Part shown: positions 10,797 through 25,519 of the stretch, in pieces
How the letters are laid out: each line of letters begins with the position of its first letter
Position numbering within the stretch: the stretch's first letter is position 1
Assembly: GCF_001428025.1 (NCBI RefSeq)
Contig: NZ_LMSC01000005.1
Location: 313,314-370,688 of the forward strand
Reading direction: 5' to 3'
DNA: 57,375 bases
Source: Phycicoccus sp. Soil748
Lineage (GTDB): Bacteria > Actinomycetota > Actinomycetes > Actinomycetales > Dermatophilaceae
The notes under the pieces: generated by a model
The model's input: only the letters and a program-made list of their open reading frames with translations
Told to the model about the DNA's origin: nothing
The model's database searches: none
Program-made: the position numbers and the translations under genes

Positions 10797-10846
10797 AGTC
10801 TTTGAGCGGTTCACCCGGTGATGGCCGGGTCAACCGCTCAAAGACT
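10797..10846. repeat. Palindromic repeat, copy 1
   Basis: Two 22-bp arms with one mismatch around a 6-nt loop. The core is TTTGAGCGGTTCACCCGG and its complement. The same element recurs at 11911-11968 and 21550-21601 with perfect 25-bp arms. It lies between the HisN-like gene and the AbiEi/DUF559 gene. Confidence 0.9.
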
Positions 10847-10914: not shown

Positions 10915-11931
10915 ATGGCCACCGACTGGCACCGGCTGCGGGTCCTCGCCGACCAGCAGCGCGACCTCCTGACTCGCCGGCAGTGCCTCGCCGCGGGGAT
11001 GAGCGCGCACGCCGTCGAGTGGCGGGTGACGAGTGGGCGGTGGGTGGCCGTGCAGCACGGCGTCTACCTGACCCGGCCCGGCCGCGACGACTGGGTCACC
11101 CGGGCAACGGCCGCACTCCTGCGATGCAGCTCGGGCGAGCCCGTGGCCGACGCAGCCCTTCGGGGACGGTCTGCCGCCTTCCTGTGGGGTCTGGTGGCTG
11201 TCGCCCCGCCCGCGGTCGAGGTCGTGGTGCCGCAGCGGCGTCAGGTCCGGACCGGCGCGGGGATCCGCGTCAGGCGCTCCATGCGGTGGGACGACTTGGT
11301 CGACGAGCGGGCCTGGCCCTGGCGGACGACGGTCGCCGCCACCGTCCTCGATGTCGGCACGAGCGGCTCGGCGATCGATGCCGTGGCCCTCGCCGCGCGA
11401 GCCGTCCAGAAGGAGCTGGTCTCGGCAGCCGAGCTGCGCCGCGAGCTGCGCGCTCGGGGCGGCCACCGCCACTCAGCAGTCATGGGTCTGGCCCTGGCGG
11501 ACGTCGCAGCCGGGGCGCAGAGCGGTGCGGAGCTCCTCTACCTGCGCGACGTGGAACGCGCCCACGGCCTGCCTCGCTCGGTGTCGCAGTCGCCGTCGGA
11601 CCTCGGGAGGCGACGGTGGCACGACCACGAGTACACGGCGTACCGGCTCGTCGTCGAGGTGGACGGCCGCCTCGGTCACGAGCAGTGGTCGGACCGCGTC
11701 CGTGACGGGCGGCGCGACCGGCTGCTGTTGGGCCAGGGCCGCACCACCACGCGGGTGTTCTGGAACGACGTCGCTGTGACGCCGTGCCAGACCGCCCACG
11801 ACATCGCGGCGATCCTGGGCGCCCGCGGGTGGAGCGGTACGGCGCGGCCCTGCCGCCGCCACGGGTGCGCGGTGGGAGTGGGCCCGTGGGCGGCCCGTGG
11901 GTGGACCGAGCCCGGGTCTTTGAGCGGTTGA
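10915..11931 (+). CDS. AbiEi-like N-terminal domain with C-terminal DUF559 (Vsr-like) nuclease domain
   Basis: A 338-residue protein. Residues about 5-55 (RVLADQQRDLLTRRQCLAAGM..HGVYLT) match the winged-helix N-terminus of AbiEi-type antitoxins; the C-terminal part (YRLVVEVDGR.GHE..DRVRDGRRDRLLLGQG) matches DUF559, a small PD-(D/E)XK/Vsr-like fold. Such solitary proteins are frequent in actinobacteria and their role is unknown; no AbiEii-type toxin is adjacent. The ATG at 10915 has a CAGGGT box 7 nt upstream; an earlier in-frame start would add 21 unrelated residues. The gene is bracketed by two copies of the palindromic repeat, and the downstream copy supplies its last four codons and the stop. 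Confidence 0.8.
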   Translation: MATDWHRLRVLADQQRDLLTRRQCLAAGMSAHAVEWRVTSGRWVAVQHGVYLTRPGRDDWVTRATAALLRCSSGEPVADAALRGRSAAFLWGLVAVAPPAVEVVVPQRRQVRTGAGIRVRRSMRWDDLVDERAWPWRTTVAATVLDVGTSGSAIDAVALAARAVQKELVSAAELRRELRARGGHRHSAVMGLALADVAAGAQSGAELLYLRDVERAHGLPRSVSQSPSDLGRRRWHDHEYTAYRLVVEVDGRLGHEQWSDRVRDGRRDRLLLGQGRTTTRVFWNDVAVTPCQTAHDIAAILGARGWSGTARPCRRHGCAVGVGPWAARGWTEPGSLSG

Positions 11932-11968
11932 CCCGGTCAGGGGCGGGTCAACCGCTCAAAGACCCGGG
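11911..11968. repeat. Palindromic repeat, copy 2
   Basis: Perfect 25-bp inverted arms around an 8-nt loop, core TTTGAGCGGTTGACCC and its complement, extended outwards by CCCGGG. The coding sequence of the AbiEi/DUF559 gene ends inside the left arm (TGA at 11929-11931). Confidence 0.92.
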
Positions 11969-18902: not shown

Positions 18903-19988
18903 TCAGGTCCAGCGGCGTTCGGTGACGGTGAGGGTGGCCTCGAGCCCGTCGACCTCTGCAGGGGCCCCGGCGTGCAGGGACTCGCCCCACAGCGCGACCT
19001 GCAGGCGGGCCACGGCCACGCCGAGCTCGTAGCCGCTCGGGGCACTGACGCGCAGCTCGTAGGTGTCGGCCGCGGTCGCGGCCCCCGTGCCTGTGCTACC
19101 GCGGCTCCCGACGTCGACCCCGGCCTCGGGGGCGCCGCGCAGGGCCACGGCGACGGCCCGGCCGAGGCGGTCGGCCACGGGTTCGGGTGCCACTGAAGGG
19201 ATCCCGTCCTCGAGGGCGGCAGCAGTGCCGGGCGCCGTGCCGAGCGCCGAGCGCACGGCCTCGACGCTGCCCAGCCCGAACCAGTCGGTGGGGCCGTGCC
19301 GCAGCAGGGCCCGCGCGCCGGGCCCGGCGTCGGCGCTCGCCCACCGCGACCCGCGGACGACCGCGGCAGGCACGGCGTCGGTCTTGCCCTTGACGAGGTC
19401 GGCCGCGGCGGCGAGCTCGTCGGCCACCGCCCGCGCGGTGACGTGCAGGGGGCGCTCGTCCGCGTCGACGCCGCCGCGCAGGTCGTCGAGCACCTCGAGG
19501 CCACTGGCGCCCAGGGCGAAGTCGGTCTGCCCGCCGCGCCACGGACGTCCGGCAGTGTCACTGAGCACCACCCCGAGGCGCTGCAGCCCCGTGGCGGCGA
19601 GCAGCGTGAGCCGCAGACGGTCCGCCTCGGCGTCGGGGTCGGCCGGCAGGACCAGCACGTCGTCGCGGCCGCCGGTGTTGGAGGCGTCGACACCGGCGGC
19701 CGCCATGACCGGCCCGGCGACCGCCTGCACGACCTGCGTGACGCGGTCACCGGCACGGCGCTCGGCCACGACGCGCACCGTCTGAGCAGCGACGACGGCG
19801 GTGTGGTCGGCGCCGTCCGCCCAGAGGCCGAGCGACTTGGAGACGACCTTGCTGGAGACGACGAGCACGTCACCGTCGACGAGCTCGAGGCCGGACGAAG
19901 CCAGCGCCGTGAGCAGCAGGTCGGCGAGGTCGTCGTCGGTGTGGACCTCGGGGACCCCGGTCACCGGCAGCAGCGTCAGGCCGGCCAC
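18903..19988 (-). CDS. cofE: Coenzyme F420-0:L-glutamate ligase, no nitroreductase domain
   Basis: A 361-residue protein. Residues 1 to about 245 are a CofE/FbiB N-terminal domain (LLPVTGVPEVHTDDDLADLLL, DGDVLVVSSKVVSKSLG, VVLSDTAGRPWRGGQTDFALG, LVKGKTDAVPAAVVRG). It adds L-glutamate residues to F420-0 with GTP. Mycobacterial FbiB continues with a nitroreductase-fold domain that reduces dehydro-F420; here the last ~115 residues (WFGLGSVEAVRSALG..TYELRVSAPSGYELGVAVARLQVALWGES) are much too short for that fold and I do not recognise them. The start is GTG, 3 bp after the cofD stop. Confidence 0.88.
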   Translation of the reverse strand: MAGLTLLPVTGVPEVHTDDDLADLLLTALASSGLELVDGDVLVVSSKVVSKSLGLWADGADHTAVVAAQTVRVVAERRAGDRVTQVVQAVAGPVMAAAGVDASNTGGRDDVLVLPADPDAEADRLRLTLLAATGLQRLGVVLSDTAGRPWRGGQTDFALGASGLEVLDDLRGGVDADERPLHVTARAVADELAAAADLVKGKTDAVPAAVVRGSRWASADAGPGARALLRHGPTDWFGLGSVEAVRSALGTAPGTAAALEDGIPSVAPEPVADRLGRAVAVALRGAPEAGVDVGSRGSTGTGAATAADTYELRVSAPSGYELGVAVARLQVALWGESLHAGAPAEVDGLEATLTVTERRWT

Positions 19989-19991
19989 GGT

Positions 19992-20984
19992 TCAGTGCCC
20001 AGCGGCGGCACCGGGGCCGGCGAGCTCGAGGGCCAGGTCGAGGGCGGCGCCGGCGATGTCGGCGGCGGCGTCGCGGTCGGTCATGAGCAGCGGCCGGGCG
20101 CGGACCGTGGCGCGGGGGAGGCGCACGCCGGCGGCGTCCTCCTGCGAGACCAGCCACCCGTCGAGGAAGTCCTCGTAGAGGCCGGCGACGGCAGAGGCCG
20201 TGGTGTCGACCCCGATGGCGGCCAGGCAGGCGTCGGCGTGGCCGCGCACCGGTAGGCCGCCGATGAGGGGGGAGACGCCCACGACGGGAGCAGCGGTGCC
20301 CCGCAACGCATCTCGCACACCCGGCACGCCGAGGATGATGCCGATCGAGACCACTGGGTTGCTCGGCGGGAGGAGGACGACGTCGGCCTGCCGGATGGCG
20401 TCGAGGACGCCCGGGGCCGGGGTGGCGCGGTCCATGCCGACCGCGATGAACCGCTGTGCGGGGATCGAGGCCTGGTGCCGCACCCACCACTCCTGGAAGT
20501 GGATCGCGCGCTGGCCCTCGTCGTCCTCGACGACGACGTGGGTCTCGACGGGGGAGTCGGTCATCGGCAGCAGCCGGACGTGCTGGTCGGGCAGCCCCCA
20601 CCGTTGCGAGAGCCGGGCCGTGACCTCCGAGAGCGAGACGCCCTGGCCGAGCCACTGCGAGCGGACGACGTGGGTGCCGAGGTCGAGGTCGCCGAGCCCG
20701 AACCACTGGGGCACGGCGCCGTACGCCGCGAGCTCGCCCTGCACGCGGTGGGTCTCCTCCGCGCGCCCCCAGCCCTGGCCCTCGTGGATCCCGCCGCCGA
20801 GGGTGTACATCAGCGTGTCGAGGTCGGGGCACACCCGCAGCCCGAACAGGCTGATGTCGTCGCCGGTGTTGCCGATGACGGTCAGCTCGGTGTCGCCGAG
20901 GCCGGGGGTGCGGTCGAGGTGGGTGCGGAGGCCGCGCAGGAAGCGTGCGCCTCCGACGCCACCGGCCAGTGCCGTGATGCGCAT
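19992..20984 (-). CDS. cofD: 2-phospho-L-lactate transferase (CofD/FbiA)
   Basis: A 330-residue enzyme that joins the 2-phospholactyl (or phosphoenolpyruvyl) unit to Fo in F420 synthesis. It starts MRITALAGGVGGARFLRGL and has VIGNTGDDISLFGLRVCPDLDTLMYTLGG, the GDLDLGTHVVRSQWL segment, PMTDSPVETHVV and DVVLLPPSNPVVSIG, all diagnostic of CofD. I used the ATG at 20984: the longer open frame upstream adds 51 Gly/Pro/Arg-rich residues. AAGACT lies 7 nt before the ATG (one base off TAnnnT). First gene of a cofD-cofE operon. Confidence 0.93.
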   Translation of the reverse strand: MRITALAGGVGGARFLRGLRTHLDRTPGLGDTELTVIGNTGDDISLFGLRVCPDLDTLMYTLGGGIHEGQGWGRAEETHRVQGELAAYGAVPQWFGLGDLDLGTHVVRSQWLGQGVSLSEVTARLSQRWGLPDQHVRLLPMTDSPVETHVVVEDDEGQRAIHFQEWWVRHQASIPAQRFIAVGMDRATPAPGVLDAIRQADVVLLPPSNPVVSIGIILGVPGVRDALRGTAAPVVGVSPLIGGLPVRGHADACLAAIGVDTTASAVAGLYEDFLDGWLVSQEDAAGVRLPRATVRARPLLMTDRDAAADIAGAALDLALELAGPGAAAGH

Positions 20985-21107
20985 GAGCTGCAGTCTTCCA
21001 GCAGGTCCACCGGCGCGTCCCCCGGGCCCATCCGCGGGGCCGCCTGTCGGGGCCGCCCGCGAGGGGACGCGCCCGGAGCCATGCCGGCGGAGCAACCCCC
21101 AGCCCGG

Positions 21108-21146: not shown

Positions 21147-21497
21147 ATGAGATCACGAGACCCCCAGCGCGTCCTCCGCGCGATCCGCCGCACCACGGTC
21201 GGGTCGCTGCTGGCAGCCCTCGTCGGCTCCGGCTTCGTGGCGGTCCACCTGGCCGGCGACCACGCGAGCGCCGCCGCGGCCGCCGCGACCCGCGCCTCCG
21301 ACGACCGTGCCGTCCGTGACGAGCAGGTGCCCCAGCCGGAGCCCACGCCGCAACCGGTACGGCGCCCGAGCACCAGGACCCGGCACCACACGACGCGCAA
21401 GGCCCCGGCCCCGGCGCCGGCGCAGCAGGGCTTCCAGCCGGTGGCGCCGGTGCAGCCGAGCACCGGCCCCGCGCAGTCCGGCAGCGGCGGCTCGTGA
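21147..21497 (+). CDS. Small membrane-anchored protein 1, paralogue of the protein at 21852
   Basis: A 116-residue protein of no family I can name. It has an Arg-rich N-terminus (1-17), one membrane segment or signal anchor (about 18-36, ending AVHLAGDHAS), a Pro/Arg/Thr-rich middle and a C-terminal tag running from GF at residue 95 to GS at 116. The N-terminal anchor (RRTTVGSLLAA..VAVHLAGD) and the tag align with the 88-residue protein encoded at 21852, with 10 of the last 22 residues identical. Orientation should be N-in, tail outside. A PhoP-box-like repeat lies just upstream. I infer a role tied to the redox cluster. Confidence 0.7.
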   Translation: MRSRDPQRVLRAIRRTTVGSLLAALVGSGFVAVHLAGDHASAAAAAATRASDDRAVRDEQVPQPEPTPQPVRRPSTRTRHHTTRKAPAPAPAQQGFQPVAPVQPSTGPAQSGSGGS

Positions 21498-21524
21498 ACC
21501 CCTGCCCGTCACCCGTCGTCCTCT

Positions 21525-21560
21525 GTGCTGCGGGTCTTTGAGGTGCTGCGGGTCTTTGAG
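21525..21560 (+). repeat. 18-bp perfect tandem duplication at the edge of palindrome copy 3
   Basis: GTGCTGCGGGTCTTTGAG occurs twice head to tail (21525-21542, 21543-21560). The second copy forms the beginning of the left arm of the palindrome, so the element seems to have been partly duplicated on insertion or by slippage. Confidence 0.9.
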
Positions 21561-21601
21561 CGGTTGACCCGGTCAGGACCGGGTCAACCGCTCAAAGACC
21601 C
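21550..21601. repeat. Palindromic repeat, copy 3
   Basis: Perfect 25-bp arms with a 2-nt loop (AG), core TTTGAGCGGTTGACCCGG and its complement. It lies between the two paralogous small-protein genes and is followed directly by a 13-bp tandem array. Confidence 0.92.
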
Positions 21602-21604
21602 CAC

Positions 21605-21710
21605 CAACACCAGGGACCAACACCAGGGACCAGCACCAGGGACCAGCACCAGAGACCAGCACCAGAGACCAGCACCAGAGACCAGCACCAGGAGACCAGC
21701 ACCAGGGGAC
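21605..21710 (+). repeat. 13-bp tandem repeat array, eight units
   Basis: Eight head-to-tail units of CARCACCAGRGAC (two of them 14 bp long) in an untranslated spacer. One strand is almost free of T. The array is probably prone to slippage, so unit number may differ between strains. It separates palindrome copy 3 from the operator-like repeats of the redox operon. Confidence 0.92.
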
Positions 21711-21851
21711 GGGGCTGGCGAGGACGCACTGCAGGTCCACAGGAAACCCACATCCGCCCCGGACCGGCTCCGTAGCTGCCGCACAGGAACCCCACAGCGG
21801 CCGACGCGAGTGTCGGAACCGAACAGCCACCCACGAGAAGGGACCGCCCCG
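21711..21851 (+). promoter_or_regulatory. Promoter/operator region of the redox operon with two PhoP-box-like repeats
   Basis: The rest of the 354-bp gene-free stretch. It contains CCACAGG-N4-CCACATC at 21737-21754 and GCACAGG-N4-CCACAGC at 21781-21798. Both have the 7+4+7 layout seen at 21108, and they lie 44 bp apart, four times the 11-bp period, so a regulator would bind both on the same face. An AGAAGGGA ribosome site precedes the ATG at 21852. I could not place a clear -10 box. Confidence 0.55.
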
Positions 21852-22118
21852 ATGAGCTCCCCCCGCAACCCCCTGAGCCTGGCCCGCCGCTGGACGGCCG
21901 GCGTCCTGCTGGCCTCCACGCTCGGCGCGGGGGCCGTCGGCGTCCACCTGGCGCAGGACCAGGGCACCACGACGGCCGGCTCGACCGGCACCAGCGGATC
22001 CGCCTCCGACACGAGCAGCTCGGGCTCGTCAAGCAGCACGGGGTCCACCGGCTTCAGCGCCGTCCCCGGGGTGTCCTCGGGCACCGGCTCCGCCCAGACC
22101 AGCACGAGCGGGTCGTGA
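21852..22118 (+). CDS. Small membrane-anchored protein 2, first gene of the redox operon
   Basis: An 88-residue protein, not a family I can name. An ARRWTAGVLLASTLGAGAVGVHLAQDQG anchor (about 11-38) is followed by a tail almost wholly of Ser, Gly and Thr, ending in a tag that starts with GF (residues 67-68), continues with spaced Val, TG and AQ, and ends GS, as in the paralogue at 21147. The tail should be outside the membrane. It lacks an FMN_bind domain. Its stop overlaps the GTG of apbE by 4 bp, so its synthesis is tied to that of the flavin transferase. It could be a structural or electron-carrying partner; unproven. Confidence 0.7.
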   Translation: MSSPRNPLSLARRWTAGVLLASTLGAGAVGVHLAQDQGTTTAGSTGTSGSASDTSSSGSSSSTGSTGFSAVPGVSSGTGSAQTSTSGS

Positions 22119-23194
22119 GCGCCGTGCACACCGACACCGCCCGCGTGGGCCAGAACGTCTTCACCGCGTCCGCCTCCTTCGAGGCCATCGGCACCCACCA
22201 CCACCTCATCGTGACCCGGCCGGAGACCCTCGGCGTGGCCATCTCCGCCGCCCGCGACCTCCTGGCGGAGCTCGACGCAGCGGTGTCGCGGTTCCGTCCC
22301 GACTCGGAGGTGAGCGCGCTCGCCCGGCAGCACGCCGACCGCGACGCCACCGCGCTGGTGTCGCCGGTGTTCGCCGCGAGCCTGGCTGCGGCGCTGCGTA
22401 CGGCGCGGCTGACCGACGGACTCGTGGACCCCACCGTGGGGGGCGCCGTCATCGCCTCCGGGTACGACGCCGACCTGGCGGTCGTCCGCGCTCGTGACCA
22501 GCGCGACGACGGCGCGCGCGACGACGACCCGCGCGACGACGACCCGCGCAACGACAGCGCGCGCCGGGACGACCCGCGCGACGACGACCCGCACGGCACG
22601 CGCGGGCTCGTGGAGCACGCGGTCGTCCCGGGCTGGCGCACCGTGGAGCTCGACCAGTCGCTGCGCCAGGTTCGCGTCCCGGCCGGCACGGTCCTCGACC
22701 TCGGCGCCAGTGCCAAGGCGTGGGCGGCCGACACCATCGCCGCCCGGCTTGCCGCGTCGCTCGACGGCGGTTTCCTGGTCAACCTCGGTGGCGACCTCGC
22801 CGTCTCGGGCGACCTGCCCGCCGACGGGTGGCAGGTCGCCGTCGAGGGCACGGCGGGCGAGGTGCGCCAGGTCGTGGCCGGCCACGGGCAGGCCTTCGCC
22901 ACCTCCTCGACCGGCCGGCGCACCTGGGCCCACGAGGGCCACCCCCGCCACCACATCGTCGACCCGCGGACCGGTCTCACCGCGCCCGCCGTGTGGGAGC
23001 AGGTGACCTGCGCCGGGGCCACCGCAGTGGAGGCCAACGCCGCGTCGACGGCCGCCGTCGTCCTCGGGCGGGAGGCGCCGGCGTGGCTGGCTGCCCGCGG
23101 CATACCGGCACGGCTCGACCCGGCCGGCGGCGGACCCGTCGTCACGACGCCCGGCTGGCCACAGCCCGGCGCGAGCGGGAGGAGCGCGGCATGA
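22115..23194 (+). CDS. apbE: FAD:protein FMN transferase (ApbE family)
   Basis: A 359-residue ApbE-family protein: FEAIGTHHHLIV, LAELDAAVSRFRPDSEVSAL, TDGLVDPTVGGAVIASGYD, LDLGASAKAWAADTIA, FLVNLGGDLAVSGD, HHIVDPRTG and VEANAASTAAVVLG follow the family order. These enzymes move FMN from FAD to a Thr/Ser of a redox protein. No signal peptide or lipobox is visible, so this copy should act in the cytoplasm. Residues about 126-165 are an insert of Asp/Arg/Pro repeats (DDDPR units) from a GC-rich 15-bp repeat. Coupled by 4-bp overlaps to the genes on both sides. The flavin-accepting partner is not evident in the window. Confidence 0.88.
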   Translation: MSAVHTDTARVGQNVFTASASFEAIGTHHHLIVTRPETLGVAISAARDLLAELDAAVSRFRPDSEVSALARQHADRDATALVSPVFAASLAAALRTARLTDGLVDPTVGGAVIASGYDADLAVVRARDQRDDGARDDDPRDDDPRNDSARRDDPRDDDPHGTRGLVEHAVVPGWRTVELDQSLRQVRVPAGTVLDLGASAKAWAADTIAARLAASLDGGFLVNLGGDLAVSGDLPADGWQVAVEGTAGEVRQVVAGHGQAFATSSTGRRTWAHEGHPRHHIVDPRTGLTAPAVWEQVTCAGATAVEANAASTAAVVLGREAPAWLAARGIPARLDPAGGGPVVTTPGWPQPGASGRSAA

Positions 23195-23751
23195 ACGAGC
23201 TCCTGTGGTTCGTCTCCCGGGCGACCGGCACGGCGAGCATCGTCCTGCTGACCGCGGTGCTCGTCCTGGGGGCGCTCACCGCCGGCCGCCGCAGCCGCGC
23301 CCTGAGCCAGACCGTCGTGGTCGGGCTGCACCGGTCGCTGGCCCTCGGCACGTCGGCGTTCCTGCTCGCGCACATCGGCACGGCGGTCCTGGAGACCTAC
23401 GTCAGCATCGACTGGGTCTCCGCGTTCGTGCCCTTCACCGCCGGCTACCAGCCGCTGTGGGTCGGGCTCGGCACCCTCGCCTTCGACATCGTGCTGGCCG
23501 TGGTCGCGACGTCCCTGCTGCGGCACCGGCTCTCCCGGCGCGCGTGGAAGGCCGTCCACCTCACGGCATTCGCCCTCTGGCCGCTCGCCCTCGTCCACGG
23601 CTACGCCATGGGCACCGCGAACGAGCCGCTGCTGCGCCTCGTACCCGTCGCCTGCGCCGTCGTCGGCGGCCTCGCCCTCACCTGGCGCGCCGTCGCGCGC
23701 CACGCCGACCAGGACCGCCGCCAGGCGATCCTCACCCAGGAGTGGTCATGA
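23191..23751 (+). CDS. Ferric-reductase-like transmembrane protein
   Basis: A 186-residue protein with about six helices: ELLWFVSRATGTASIVLLT at the start, then HRSLALGTSAFLLAHIGTAVLETYVS, RRAWKAVHLTAFALWPLALVHGYAMG. The His pairs in the middle helices fit the haem ligands of the ferric-reductase/MsrQ/YedZ-like superfamily. It would carry electrons across the membrane through b haem or to a bound flavin. It overlaps apbE and the NuoF-like gene by ATGA, so the order ApbE - membrane cytochrome - flavoprotein - ferredoxin is one translated unit. Confidence 0.82.
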   Translation: MNELLWFVSRATGTASIVLLTAVLVLGALTAGRRSRALSQTVVVGLHRSLALGTSAFLLAHIGTAVLETYVSIDWVSAFVPFTAGYQPLWVGLGTLAFDIVLAVVATSLLRHRLSRRAWKAVHLTAFALWPLALVHGYAMGTANEPLLRLVPVACAVVGGLALTWRAVARHADQDRRQAILTQEWS

Positions 23752-24851
23752 ACCTCGTCCAGCTGCTCGAGCAGTCCGGCCTCACCGGCCGTGGTGGTGC
23801 GGCGTTCAGCACCGCCACCAAGGTCCGCGCCGCCCACGAGCACGGTGCCGCGCTCATCGTGAACGCCTGCGACGGCGAGATCGGAGCCATGAAGGACGCG
23901 TACGTCGTCGAGCACCACCTCCCGGAGCTGGTCCGCGGCGCCACGCTCGTCGGTGGCCGGCGCGTCCGGTACGCAGCCCACCGCGGGTCCGCGACCGAGG
24001 CCCGGCTGCGCTCGGCAGGGCTCGACGTGCTCTCGGCACCCGCGCGGTACGTGTCGTCGGAGGAGACGTCCCTCATCTCGCTGGCCCAGGGCGGGCTGGC
24101 GCGGCCGATGACCAAGCGGCAGCCGTTCGTCATGGGCGGCGCAGACAGCGAGGGACGGCGCATCAGCCCCACGGTGGTGCTCAACGCCGAGACCCTGTGG
24201 CGGGTCGCCCAGGTCGTCGAGCACGGGCCGCAGTGGTTCCGGTCGCAGGGCCTGCCGGACGAGCCGGGCCCGCGCCTGGTCGGCGTCGGCGGTGCGGTCT
24301 CCCGCCCGGGCGTCATCGCCACGAGCGCCGGGATCGCCCTGCGCGACATCGTGGCGGCAGCCGGGGGCGACCTCGACCACAGCGGCCCGGTCATCGTCGG
24401 CGGCCTCGGCGGCGTGCTGCTCAGCCGCGCCGAGGCTGCCTCGGCCACCTGGTCGACCGAGGGCCTGCGGGCGTTCGGTGGGCGTCCGGGGTCGGGCGTC
24501 GTGCACGTGCTCGATGCCGGCGACTGCCCCGTGGCGCAGCTGGCCCACTGGTTCGACCACGCGGCGGGGGAGAGCGCCGGCCAGTGCGGTCCGTGCATGT
24601 TCGGCCTGCCGTCGATCGCCGCCGACTGGCACGAGCTGGCCGTCGGGAGCTCGCCCGTCGCCCGCGAACGCCTCCAGCGCCGGGCCGCCTCGGTCACCGG
24701 CCGCGGTGCGTGCCGCTTCCCCGACGGCGTCGCAGGGCTGGCCACCTCGGCCCTGCGCGTGCTGTCCGACCACCTCGCCGACCACGCCTGCGGCCGCTGC
24801 GCCGAGGGCCACCCCTCCAGGAGCAGCCATGACCGCGTCCTCGCCCACTGA
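23748..24851 (+). CDS. NuoF-like flavin/Fe-S protein (SLBB and Complex1_51K-type)
   Basis: A 367-residue protein related to the 51-kDa subunit of complex I. It has GRGGAAFSTATK (residues 14-25, FMN-binding), NACDGEIGAMKD, YVSSEETSLI and an SLBB-like part (VGVGGAVSRPGVI). Near the C-terminus ESAGQCGPCMFG takes the place of the usual ESCGxCxPC: Cys280 and Cys283 are kept but the first cluster ligand is Ala. Further Cys follow in GACRFPDG (Cys322) and HACGRC. It probably takes electrons from NADH or ferredoxin in the cytoplasm and passes them to the membrane cytochrome. It overlaps the ferredoxin gene by 23 bp. Confidence 0.85.
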   Translation: MNLVQLLEQSGLTGRGGAAFSTATKVRAAHEHGAALIVNACDGEIGAMKDAYVVEHHLPELVRGATLVGGRRVRYAAHRGSATEARLRSAGLDVLSAPARYVSSEETSLISLAQGGLARPMTKRQPFVMGGADSEGRRISPTVVLNAETLWRVAQVVEHGPQWFRSQGLPDEPGPRLVGVGGAVSRPGVIATSAGIALRDIVAAAGGDLDHSGPVIVGGLGGVLLSRAEAASATWSTEGLRAFGGRPGSGVVHVLDAGDCPVAQLAHWFDHAAGESAGQCGPCMFGLPSIAADWHELAVGSSPVARERLQRRAASVTGRGACRFPDGVAGLATSALRVLSDHLADHACGRCAEGHPSRSSHDRVLAH

Positions 24852-25086
24852 CCGCCGCGACCGTCCCGCGCTCGCCGGCCACCCCACCGTCAGGGTCGAC
24901 CGGGTCGCCTGCACCGGGCACGGCGTGTGCGCCAGCCTTCTCCCGGGAAGCGTCCGGCTCGACGAGTGGGGCTATCCCGTCGTGCTCACCGCCGCCGAGG
25001 GAGGCGTCGACGACGGGGAGAGCGCACGGGCTGCGGCGGTCCGTCTCTGCCCGGCCATGGCCCTGTACGCAGAACGCCGGAGCTGA
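24829..25086 (+). CDS. 3Fe-4S-type ferredoxin
   Basis: An 85-residue ferredoxin with only three cluster Cys: Cys28 and Cys34 in CTGHGVC and Cys74 in LCP. His31 stands where a fourth ligand would be. This is the pattern of mycobacterial/streptomycete 3Fe-4S (or His-ligated) ferredoxins that usually serve P450s. The segment LPGSVRLDEWGYPVVL is typical. As last gene of the redox operon, it is more likely the electron donor or acceptor of the NuoF-like protein; no P450 is in the window. Confidence 0.88.
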   Translation: MTASSPTDRRDRPALAGHPTVRVDRVACTGHGVCASLLPGSVRLDEWGYPVVLTAAEGGVDDGESARAAAVRLCPAMALYAERRS

Positions 25087-25255: not shown

Positions 25256-25519
25256 GTGCACGAACTTCAGTTGGTCGCCCTGGACGGCGGCGACGACACC
25301 GAGATGTCCTGGCAGGAGCGTTCGCTCTGCGCCCAGACGGATCCCGAGGCGTTCTTCCCCGAGAAGGGCGGCTCGACGCGCGAGGCCAAGAAGGTCTGCG
25401 TGGGCTGCGAGGTGCGCTCCGAGTGCCTCGAGTACGCCCTGGCGAACGACGAGCGCTTCGGCATCTGGGGCGGGCTGTCCGAGCGGGAGCGCCGCAAGCT
25501 CAAGAAGCGTGCGGTCTAG
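25256..25519 (+). CDS. whiB: WhiB family Fe-S regulator (WhiB2/WhmD type)
   Basis: An 87-residue protein with the four WhiB cluster ligands Cys25, Cys48, Cys51 and Cys57 (C-x22-CxxC-x5-C), the GIWGG turn at 69-73 and a basic C-terminal tail RERRKLKKRAV. It binds a 4Fe-4S cluster, normally partners sigma factor A and controls septation and wall genes. The neighbourhood (manB, DUF3499, zincin-like, cofDE) is that of whiB2/whmD in mycobacteria and whiB in streptomycetes. The GTG at 25256 lies 5 nt after GAGGAGG. Confidence 0.93.
   Translation: MHELQLVALDGGDDTEMSWQERSLCAQTDPEAFFPEKGGSTREAKKVCVGCEVRSECLEYALANDERFGIWGGLSERERRKLKKRAV

Follow-up and report, generated by a model that had tools for sequence, protein, structure and literature searches.

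A candidate C-terminal flavin tag on a membrane-anchored tether encoded beside ApbE in an actinomycete redox operon

ApbE enzymes attach flavin mononucleotide (FMN) to proteins at the motif D-x-x-[S/T]-G-A-[S/T], with FMN on the last residue (PMC12052999; this and all other papers are cited here from excerpts). In the same account, serine is accepted by ApbE less well than threonine, replacement of the motif Asp (Asp to Ala) has a minor effect, and a seven-residue tag was labelled best at a terminus (PMC12052999). The closest described gene clusters are the MsrQ-like clusters of Actinobacteria, 1797 in all, of which 31 include a NuoF-like protein (Meheust et al. 2021, PMC8238504). According to that eLife 2021 survey, there are still genomes that have ApbE but no substrate of a known type, and some substrates have yet to be identified; Flavodoxin_4 and FMN_red have been added as ApbE substrates (PMC11334425). 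Here we analyzed an ApbE operon in a window of 57,375 nucleotides from Phycicoccus sp. Soil748 (contig NZ_LMSC01000005.1, positions 313,314 to 370,688), in which genes for a small anchored protein (small protein B, or the tether), ApbE, a ferric-reductase-like membrane protein, a NuoF-like protein, and a ferredoxin lie in series downstream of a gene for a second small protein, A (Table 1).

A first-pass annotation of the sequence had assigned the small proteins to no known family, and we agree, as neither A nor B matched Pfam or NCBIfam over cut-off, including the FMN_bind, DUF2271, DUF3570, and NqrB domains in particular. Neither protein contains the canonical Dxx[ST]GA[ST], and [ST]GA[ST] is absent from all six operon-region proteins, but both A and B carry a relaxed form of the motif at their C terminus. 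FMN on this tail is proposed because the tail residues line up with those of the ApbE motif, with the acceptor at the last residue. From sequence, we consider it probable that the operon encodes a membrane electron-transfer module in which FMN added by ApbE to the C-terminal serine of a domain-less tether serves the cytochrome.

The C-terminal tail in relatives and on plasmids

Searching 59 genomes of the family with the NuoF-like protein revealed a distinct group of closer relatives, from which 20 regions were taken, 19 of them with ApbE. An ApbE search of 394 genomes of the class gave 63 at E <= 1e-20; three of these were already in the set, G118, G161, and G361 were left out, and 60 regions from 57 genomes were used. 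With eight named loci added from a genome-contig scan, seven of which gave an ApbE row, the total was 88 loci, 86 of them with an ApbE row. The tail open reading frame (ORF) was chosen by a transmembrane (TM) segment and a stop adjoining the ApbE start, and candidates were ranked by codon GC pattern with the C terminus ignored. Tail counts were limited to the 80 ApbE rows with a cytochrome or NuoF nearby, which excluded L172, L182, and L183 (all three with fitting tails), L195, L205, L212, and one ApbE of L213 (no TM ORF). L046 was missed in the ORF step (its tail, TTTTGS, is encoded 5' of the cytochrome gene), and L060 was cut.

A TM ORF adjoined ApbE in 76 of the 80 rows and was the single candidate in 74 of these. 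The tail ended in [ST]x[GAST]S in 69 of 76 and in the stricter [ST]x[GA]S in 66 of 76, against 2.2 strict endings expected from each tail's own composition. Position -1 was Ser in all 69 tails, position -2 was Gly in 60 and Ala in 6, position -4 was Ser in 38 and Thr in 31, and position -7 was His in 20, Gln in 19, and Asp in 3 (42/69). These endings were diverse, with 64 distinct last-eight sequences among the 69 tails, and the linkers before them were highly variable (Ser-rich, Pro-rich, or Ala/Lys-rich) and of low complexity, averaging 26% Ser. The exact canonical motif terminates the tails of L050 (DSNTGAS) and L072 (DSTSGAS), and the off-pattern L223, ending HATSGATS, contains a canonical SGAT. 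On the draft contig of L223, ApbE matches are split over two overlapping frames. Among other coding-like ORFs, a [ST]x[GA]S ending occurred in 0 of 34 in the window and 1 of 181 in the class loci. The tail is present in 21 families of one class. In L186, the tail gene lies 3' of ApbE rather than 5', and the four rows with no candidate ORF were L175 (two tail genes downstream), L181 and L194 (contig ends), and L187.

Of 15 NuoF loci from the same family in which ApbE is missing, 12 lacked a tail ORF in a scan limited to the operon strand; among these 12, L066 and L073 are truncated close to the start of the contig, and no cytochrome was seen in L078 and L054. L060 and L061, truncated at ApbE or ahead of it, also have no tail, and L065, from a Chloroflexi metagenome-assembled genome, encodes a cytochrome, a NuoF-like protein, a ferredoxin, and a tail protein ending VVSGGS (L065:4998-5306). 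The first-pass annotation had proposed a gene-neighborhood census and had held that small proteins occurring mostly without ApbE would speak against its proposal; we found the small protein adjoining ApbE in most relatives examined.

A plasmid search made after the pattern was fixed provided a held-out test. The search matched 188 records, most of them in genera such as Enterococcus and Pantoea, which lie outside the test, and the test set consisted of 6 of the 10 plasmid records listed, from Arthrobacter, Gordonia, and Rhodococcus. The tail fit in all six loci (L253, L254, L255, L256, L257, and L258), with His or Gln at -7 (PHTTTRAS, PQVHTAAS, HARSAGS in two loci, PHTSTRAS, and PQTATRAS). Since these tails are alike within Arthrobacter and within Rhodococcus, the six amount to about three independent cases. 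The same four core genes are annotated in five of the plasmid loci, with four like-sized hypothetical genes in L257, and the tail protein itself is annotated, as hypothetical, in L256 and L258. All six plasmids are large, and three of them have a conjugative typing. The presence of a VIT family gene close to the L256 copy is consistent with the iron link proposed for related clusters (PMC8238504).

The operon ApbE clade and other candidate acceptors

The window ApbE matched PF02424 at 152.7 bits against a cut-off of 25.6 (Pfam 1.8e-44), and solved FMN transferases match the same profile. Its N terminus is not strongly hydrophobic, in keeping with the earlier description of an ApbE without export signal, and no hydrophobic stretch of at least 1.6 was found before ApbE in 77 of 80 rows. 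ApbE has three conserved catalytic residues, Ser, His, and Asp (PMC12052999); the excerpts of PMC4767422 contained no passage on the catalytic Asp. Operon-locus ApbEs keep the Ser and His and have Asn for Asp in 80 of the 81 rows that include this position (79 of 80 loci), and the lone exception, L074, has Glu there and no tail. All 19 rows for ApbEs of FMN_bind loci, from 17 genes, show Asp, and the operon ApbEs form one group apart from these FMN_bind-type enzymes (support 0.992). A C-terminal acceptor adds a negative charge, and losing the charge of the Asp would make room for it. On these grounds we lean toward the view that the Asn-changed clade is fitted to a serine with a free carboxylate, and that FMN would be held on the last residue of a disordered tether, a swinging arm for the diheme cytochrome, in many Actinomycetes families and on conjugative plasmids.

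The absence of an FMN_bind target from the window, as first reported, was borne out, with the single FMN_bind protein of the genome encoded on another contig. This protein carries the motif SGATYTS; its gene has that of a second ApbE on its 3' side and, on its 5' side, a reductase-like gene that by eye includes a fused NAD-binding part. We rejected it as the target of the window ApbE, a candidate that the first-pass annotation had named as a threat to its proposal if it were the sole one, as it has its own ApbE, of the other group, beside it, and 39 of the 77 genomes searched have no FMN_bind. The window ApbE has no partner of a known type beside it. FMN_bind was found in the other 38 genomes, and all 29 genomes with a single ApbE match were without it (Fisher p 6e-13, relatedness not corrected). 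In the 39 genomes without FMN_bind, DUF3570 and NqrB/RnfD gave no match, and DUF2271 gave a single weaker match, in G103, and none over cut-off. The 77 genomes include some whose ApbE locus shows no tail (e.g., G110, G214, and G061). The membrane protein, the NuoF-like protein, and the ferredoxin were also rejected as ApbE targets, with no [ST]GA[ST] in any of them. Of the two new flavin acceptors that had been suggested, the membrane protein itself is thus not supported, for want of the motif, and a small protein is retained as the candidate, with the relatives pointing to its extreme C terminus.

In 69 of 70 tail proteins, the charge that precedes the TM segment is more positive than the charge that follows, and we tentatively place the tail outside for this reason. 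A strict twin-arginine translocation (Tat) pattern was present in 0 of 70, and RR preceded the TM segment in 45 of 70.

Redox partners, gene layout, and flanking DNA

The membrane protein had no Pfam match over cut-off, and PF01794 was not listed up to E 1. Five plasmid relatives were named "ferric reductase-like transmembrane" by their annotators, and the two His pairs of the cytochrome, H47/H61 and H123/H136 (spacing 14 and 13), were invariant in 19 rows. The predicted model has five long helices with a mean predicted local distance difference test (pLDDT) score of 84.9, and its nine best PDB fold matches were STEAP and NOX proteins (Foldseek probability 1.00, E 0.008-0.05, none <= 0.001). 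The protein is likely a two-heme transmembrane cytochrome.

The NuoF-like protein matched Complex1_51K (3e-16) and NADH_4Fe-4S (2.6e-9) and keeps GRGG. Ala occupies the first Cys position of the four-Cys cluster motif, which we take to be ESCGxCxPC in NuoF, in 20 of 20 sequences (this protein and 19 aligned relatives), and C351 is nearly invariant; a Cys and a His near the C terminus may replace the missing first Cys. The ferredoxin matched Fer4_15 (2.6e-11), and by eye neither of these proteins has an export signal. We support, by inference, the earlier proposal that electrons would pass from reduced nicotinamide adenine dinucleotide (NADH) or ferredoxin via the membrane cytochrome, with either of the two as the possible donor.

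The frames and coordinates of the five-gene order hold as first described, with overlaps of 4, 4, 4, and 23 bp, and A, reported as an upstream paralogue of the first operon gene, has an anchor and a tail in common with B. Because a 25-bp perfect inverted repeat (z -10.8) separates A from B, A may be its own transcription unit apart from the operon. The repeat is one of three window copies (21550-21601, 10801-10842, and 11915-11960) of a long palindrome with the core TTTGAGCGGTTGACC. Nine exact matches to a 20-base stretch of the palindrome arm occur in the genome, which marks it as a dispersed element of a hairpin or terminator-like kind. At 21590-21706, a 13-bp unit is repeated in tandem, and this array ends about 150 bp 5' of small protein B.

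Upstream of the operon, on the opposite strand, lie the F420 genes cofE and cofD (18903-20990). We provisionally rejected a link to F420, as the flanks inspected in L057 and L072 hold other genes and cofD is outside the six recurrent neighbor clusters (both by eye). One recurrent neighbor cluster, in 19 loci, consists of response-regulator- or kinase-like ORFs (by eye). A membrane protein common to four loci, two of which were scanned, gave one weak cytochrome b561 match, under cut-off. A WhiB regulator gene lies 3' of the operon (25256-25519).

Table 1. Features of the operon region, in window coordinates.
Feature	Position	Strand	Remarks
Small protein A, 116 aa	21147..21497	+	N-terminal TM segment, Pro/Ala/Thr linker, C terminus QSGSGGS; paralogue of B
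25-bp perfect inverted repeat, 2-nt loop	21550..21601		Between A and B; copy of dispersed palindromic element
Small protein B (tether), 88 aa	21852..22118	+	N-terminal TM segment, Ser/Thr/Gly linker, C terminus QTSTSGS; proposed FMN acceptor
Proposed C-terminal flavin tag, B codons QTSTSGS (last seven)	22095..22115	+	Stop codon 22116-22118 next
ApbE-family FAD:protein FMN transferase	22115..23194	+	S264 and H280 kept; N308 replaces conserved Asp; export signal none seen
Ferric-reductase/STEAP/NOX-like membrane cytochrome	23191..23751	+	Four invariant His (47, 61, 123, 136)
NuoF-like putative electron-input protein	23748..24851	+	Complex1_51K and NADH_4Fe-4S
Fer4_15 single-cluster ferredoxin	24829..25086	+	Pfam match

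Proposed mechanism, alternatives, and known systems

In the mechanism that we propose, small protein B (and A) would be held by a single N-terminal helix and would end in a natural flavin tag, [H/Q/D]-x-x-[S/T]-x-[G/A]-S-COOH, onto which ApbE would move FMN from flavin adenine dinucleotide (FAD), most likely at the C-terminal serine. Electron input would fall to the NuoF-like protein and the ferredoxin, which would draw electrons from NADH or the reduced ferredoxin pool, and the diheme-type cytochrome would conduct them through the membrane, presumably outward. The tethered FMN would then take up the electrons and hand them to an acceptor, presumably outside and possibly ferric iron.

Several observations weigh against this mechanism. 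The sequences are related, so that the counts are not independent, and only 2 of 76 tails carry the exact motif, most having Gly where Ala is usual. No tail was found in L039, L074, L196, L207 (end PSGG), and L211, and none was seen in L187, while L065 presents the reverse case, a tail gene with no ApbE found in a 10.8-kb piece. The clustering of the operon ApbEs in one group means that the Asp-to-Asn change was probably a single event, and L195, L205, and L212 have the Asn with no tail seen. As the Asn stands at a residue called catalytic, the activity of the operon ApbE could be lost or changed. The search of the 39 genomes without FMN_bind did not include Flavodoxin_4 and FMN_red. Finally, the outside location indicated by the charges is hard to reconcile with an ApbE that shows no export signal and a tail that has no strict Tat pattern, a difficulty that the FMN_bind pair of the genome also presents; the tail may receive its label before it is exported, or it may lie inside, where the flavin would work on the cytosolic side.

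The latter alternative, a flavinylated cytosolic tail (N terminus out) whose FMN, as a swinging arm within the cell, would carry electrons to the inner heme from the NuoF-like protein or the ferredoxin, with the cytochrome itself reducing the outside acceptor, would explain why ApbE, the NuoF-like protein, and the ferredoxin all appear to be without export signals. It is opposed by the charge difference across the TM segment in all but one tail protein, and the lack of a signal is not decisive, as the second ApbE of the genome also has none by eye and the N-terminal anchor of its FMN_bind partner has the same orientation. We therefore regard a cytosolic tail as rather unlikely. Another explanation, which we consider unlikely, is that the small protein carries no flavin and ApbE modifies some other protein; the C-terminal motif would then act in docking or quality control, as a signal to ApbE or the cytochrome. 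Such a signal would accommodate both the departure from the canonical motif at -7 and -2 in most loci and the Asn at the catalytic Asp. It would not account for [ST] at -4, a small residue at -2, and Ser at -1 falling in the register of the ApbE motif, for the exact motif in L050 and L072, or for SGAT in L223, and it is further opposed by the lack of FMN_bind, DUF2271 over cut-off, DUF3570, and NqrB/RnfD in 39 genomes and of [ST]GA[ST] in all six operon-region proteins.

The replacement of one of the three catalytic residues reviewed in PMC12052999 could also mean that the operon clade is no longer a protein FMN transferase and instead hydrolyses FAD or puts another group on the C-terminal serine. 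We find this quite improbable, given that the Ser and His are kept in the same rows, that the strongly matched ApbE profile is also matched by solved FMN transferases, and that the tail resembles an FMN acceptor motif. It is hardly credible that the C-terminal pattern arises artificially from a composition rich in Ser and Gly or from frame choice in GC-rich DNA: the linkers are indeed Ser-rich, but strict endings exceed the composition-based expectation by 66 to 2.2, a single candidate ORF was available in 74 of 76 rows, tails with only 4-11% Ser (L222, L214, L206, and L221) fit nonetheless, and so do the six held-out plasmid tails.

Having weighed these alternatives, we present the tether as a concrete candidate for an unidentified ApbE substrate, seen in 21 families of one class, with the exact residue named. 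If the proposal is correct, a protein can carry a covalent flavin without having a folded flavin domain, C-terminal serines fall within the reach of the ApbE motif, and the Asp-to-Asn change offers a way to study acceptor choice by ApbE. The tether would then represent a new way of holding an electron carrier at the membrane, and the tether and its ApbE could serve as a natural flavin-tagging pair for laboratory use.

The accessible portions of the open-licence literature contained no mention of the tether, the operon, or a natural flavinylated tail. Within the genome, the FMN_bind-ApbE locus (L001) resembles the operon in having an ApbE without signal by eye, an anchored partner, and an adjoining reductase-like membrane gene, and differs from it in the canonical SGATYTS, an ApbE with Asp, and a reductase with a fused NAD-binding part (by eye). 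As with known ApbE substrates, the gene for the proposed substrate adjoins apbE and encodes an ApbE-like motif (PMC8238504; PMC11334425). FMN_bind, NqrB/RnfD, DUF2271, DUF3570, Flavodoxin_4, and FMN_red are folded domains, whereas the tether consists of a TM anchor and a linker with the proposed acceptor as its last residue; the flavin sites of FMN_red on an unstructured C-terminal extension may be compared with the tether tail (PMC11334425). The tether also resembles the engineered flavin tag, a seven-residue motif that works best at a terminus (PMC12052999), although that tag is man-made and canonical and the tether motif is natural and mostly diverged, with a free carboxylate on the acceptor serine. 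The nearest likeness is to the MsrQ-like systems, which are broad in Actinobacteria and in which apbE adjoins the gene for a ferric-reductase-like membrane protein that has two heme sites and electrons are proposed to flow from NAD(P)H to a flavin on the outside, as here (PMC8238504). In contrast to those clusters, which typically include a gene for an FMN-binding domain, this operon has a domain-less tether with a C-terminal motif and an ApbE with Asn for Asp. The frame of the operon, including NuoF, is already in print as the MsrQ-like cluster, and a new kind of flavin carrier within it is strongly suggested.

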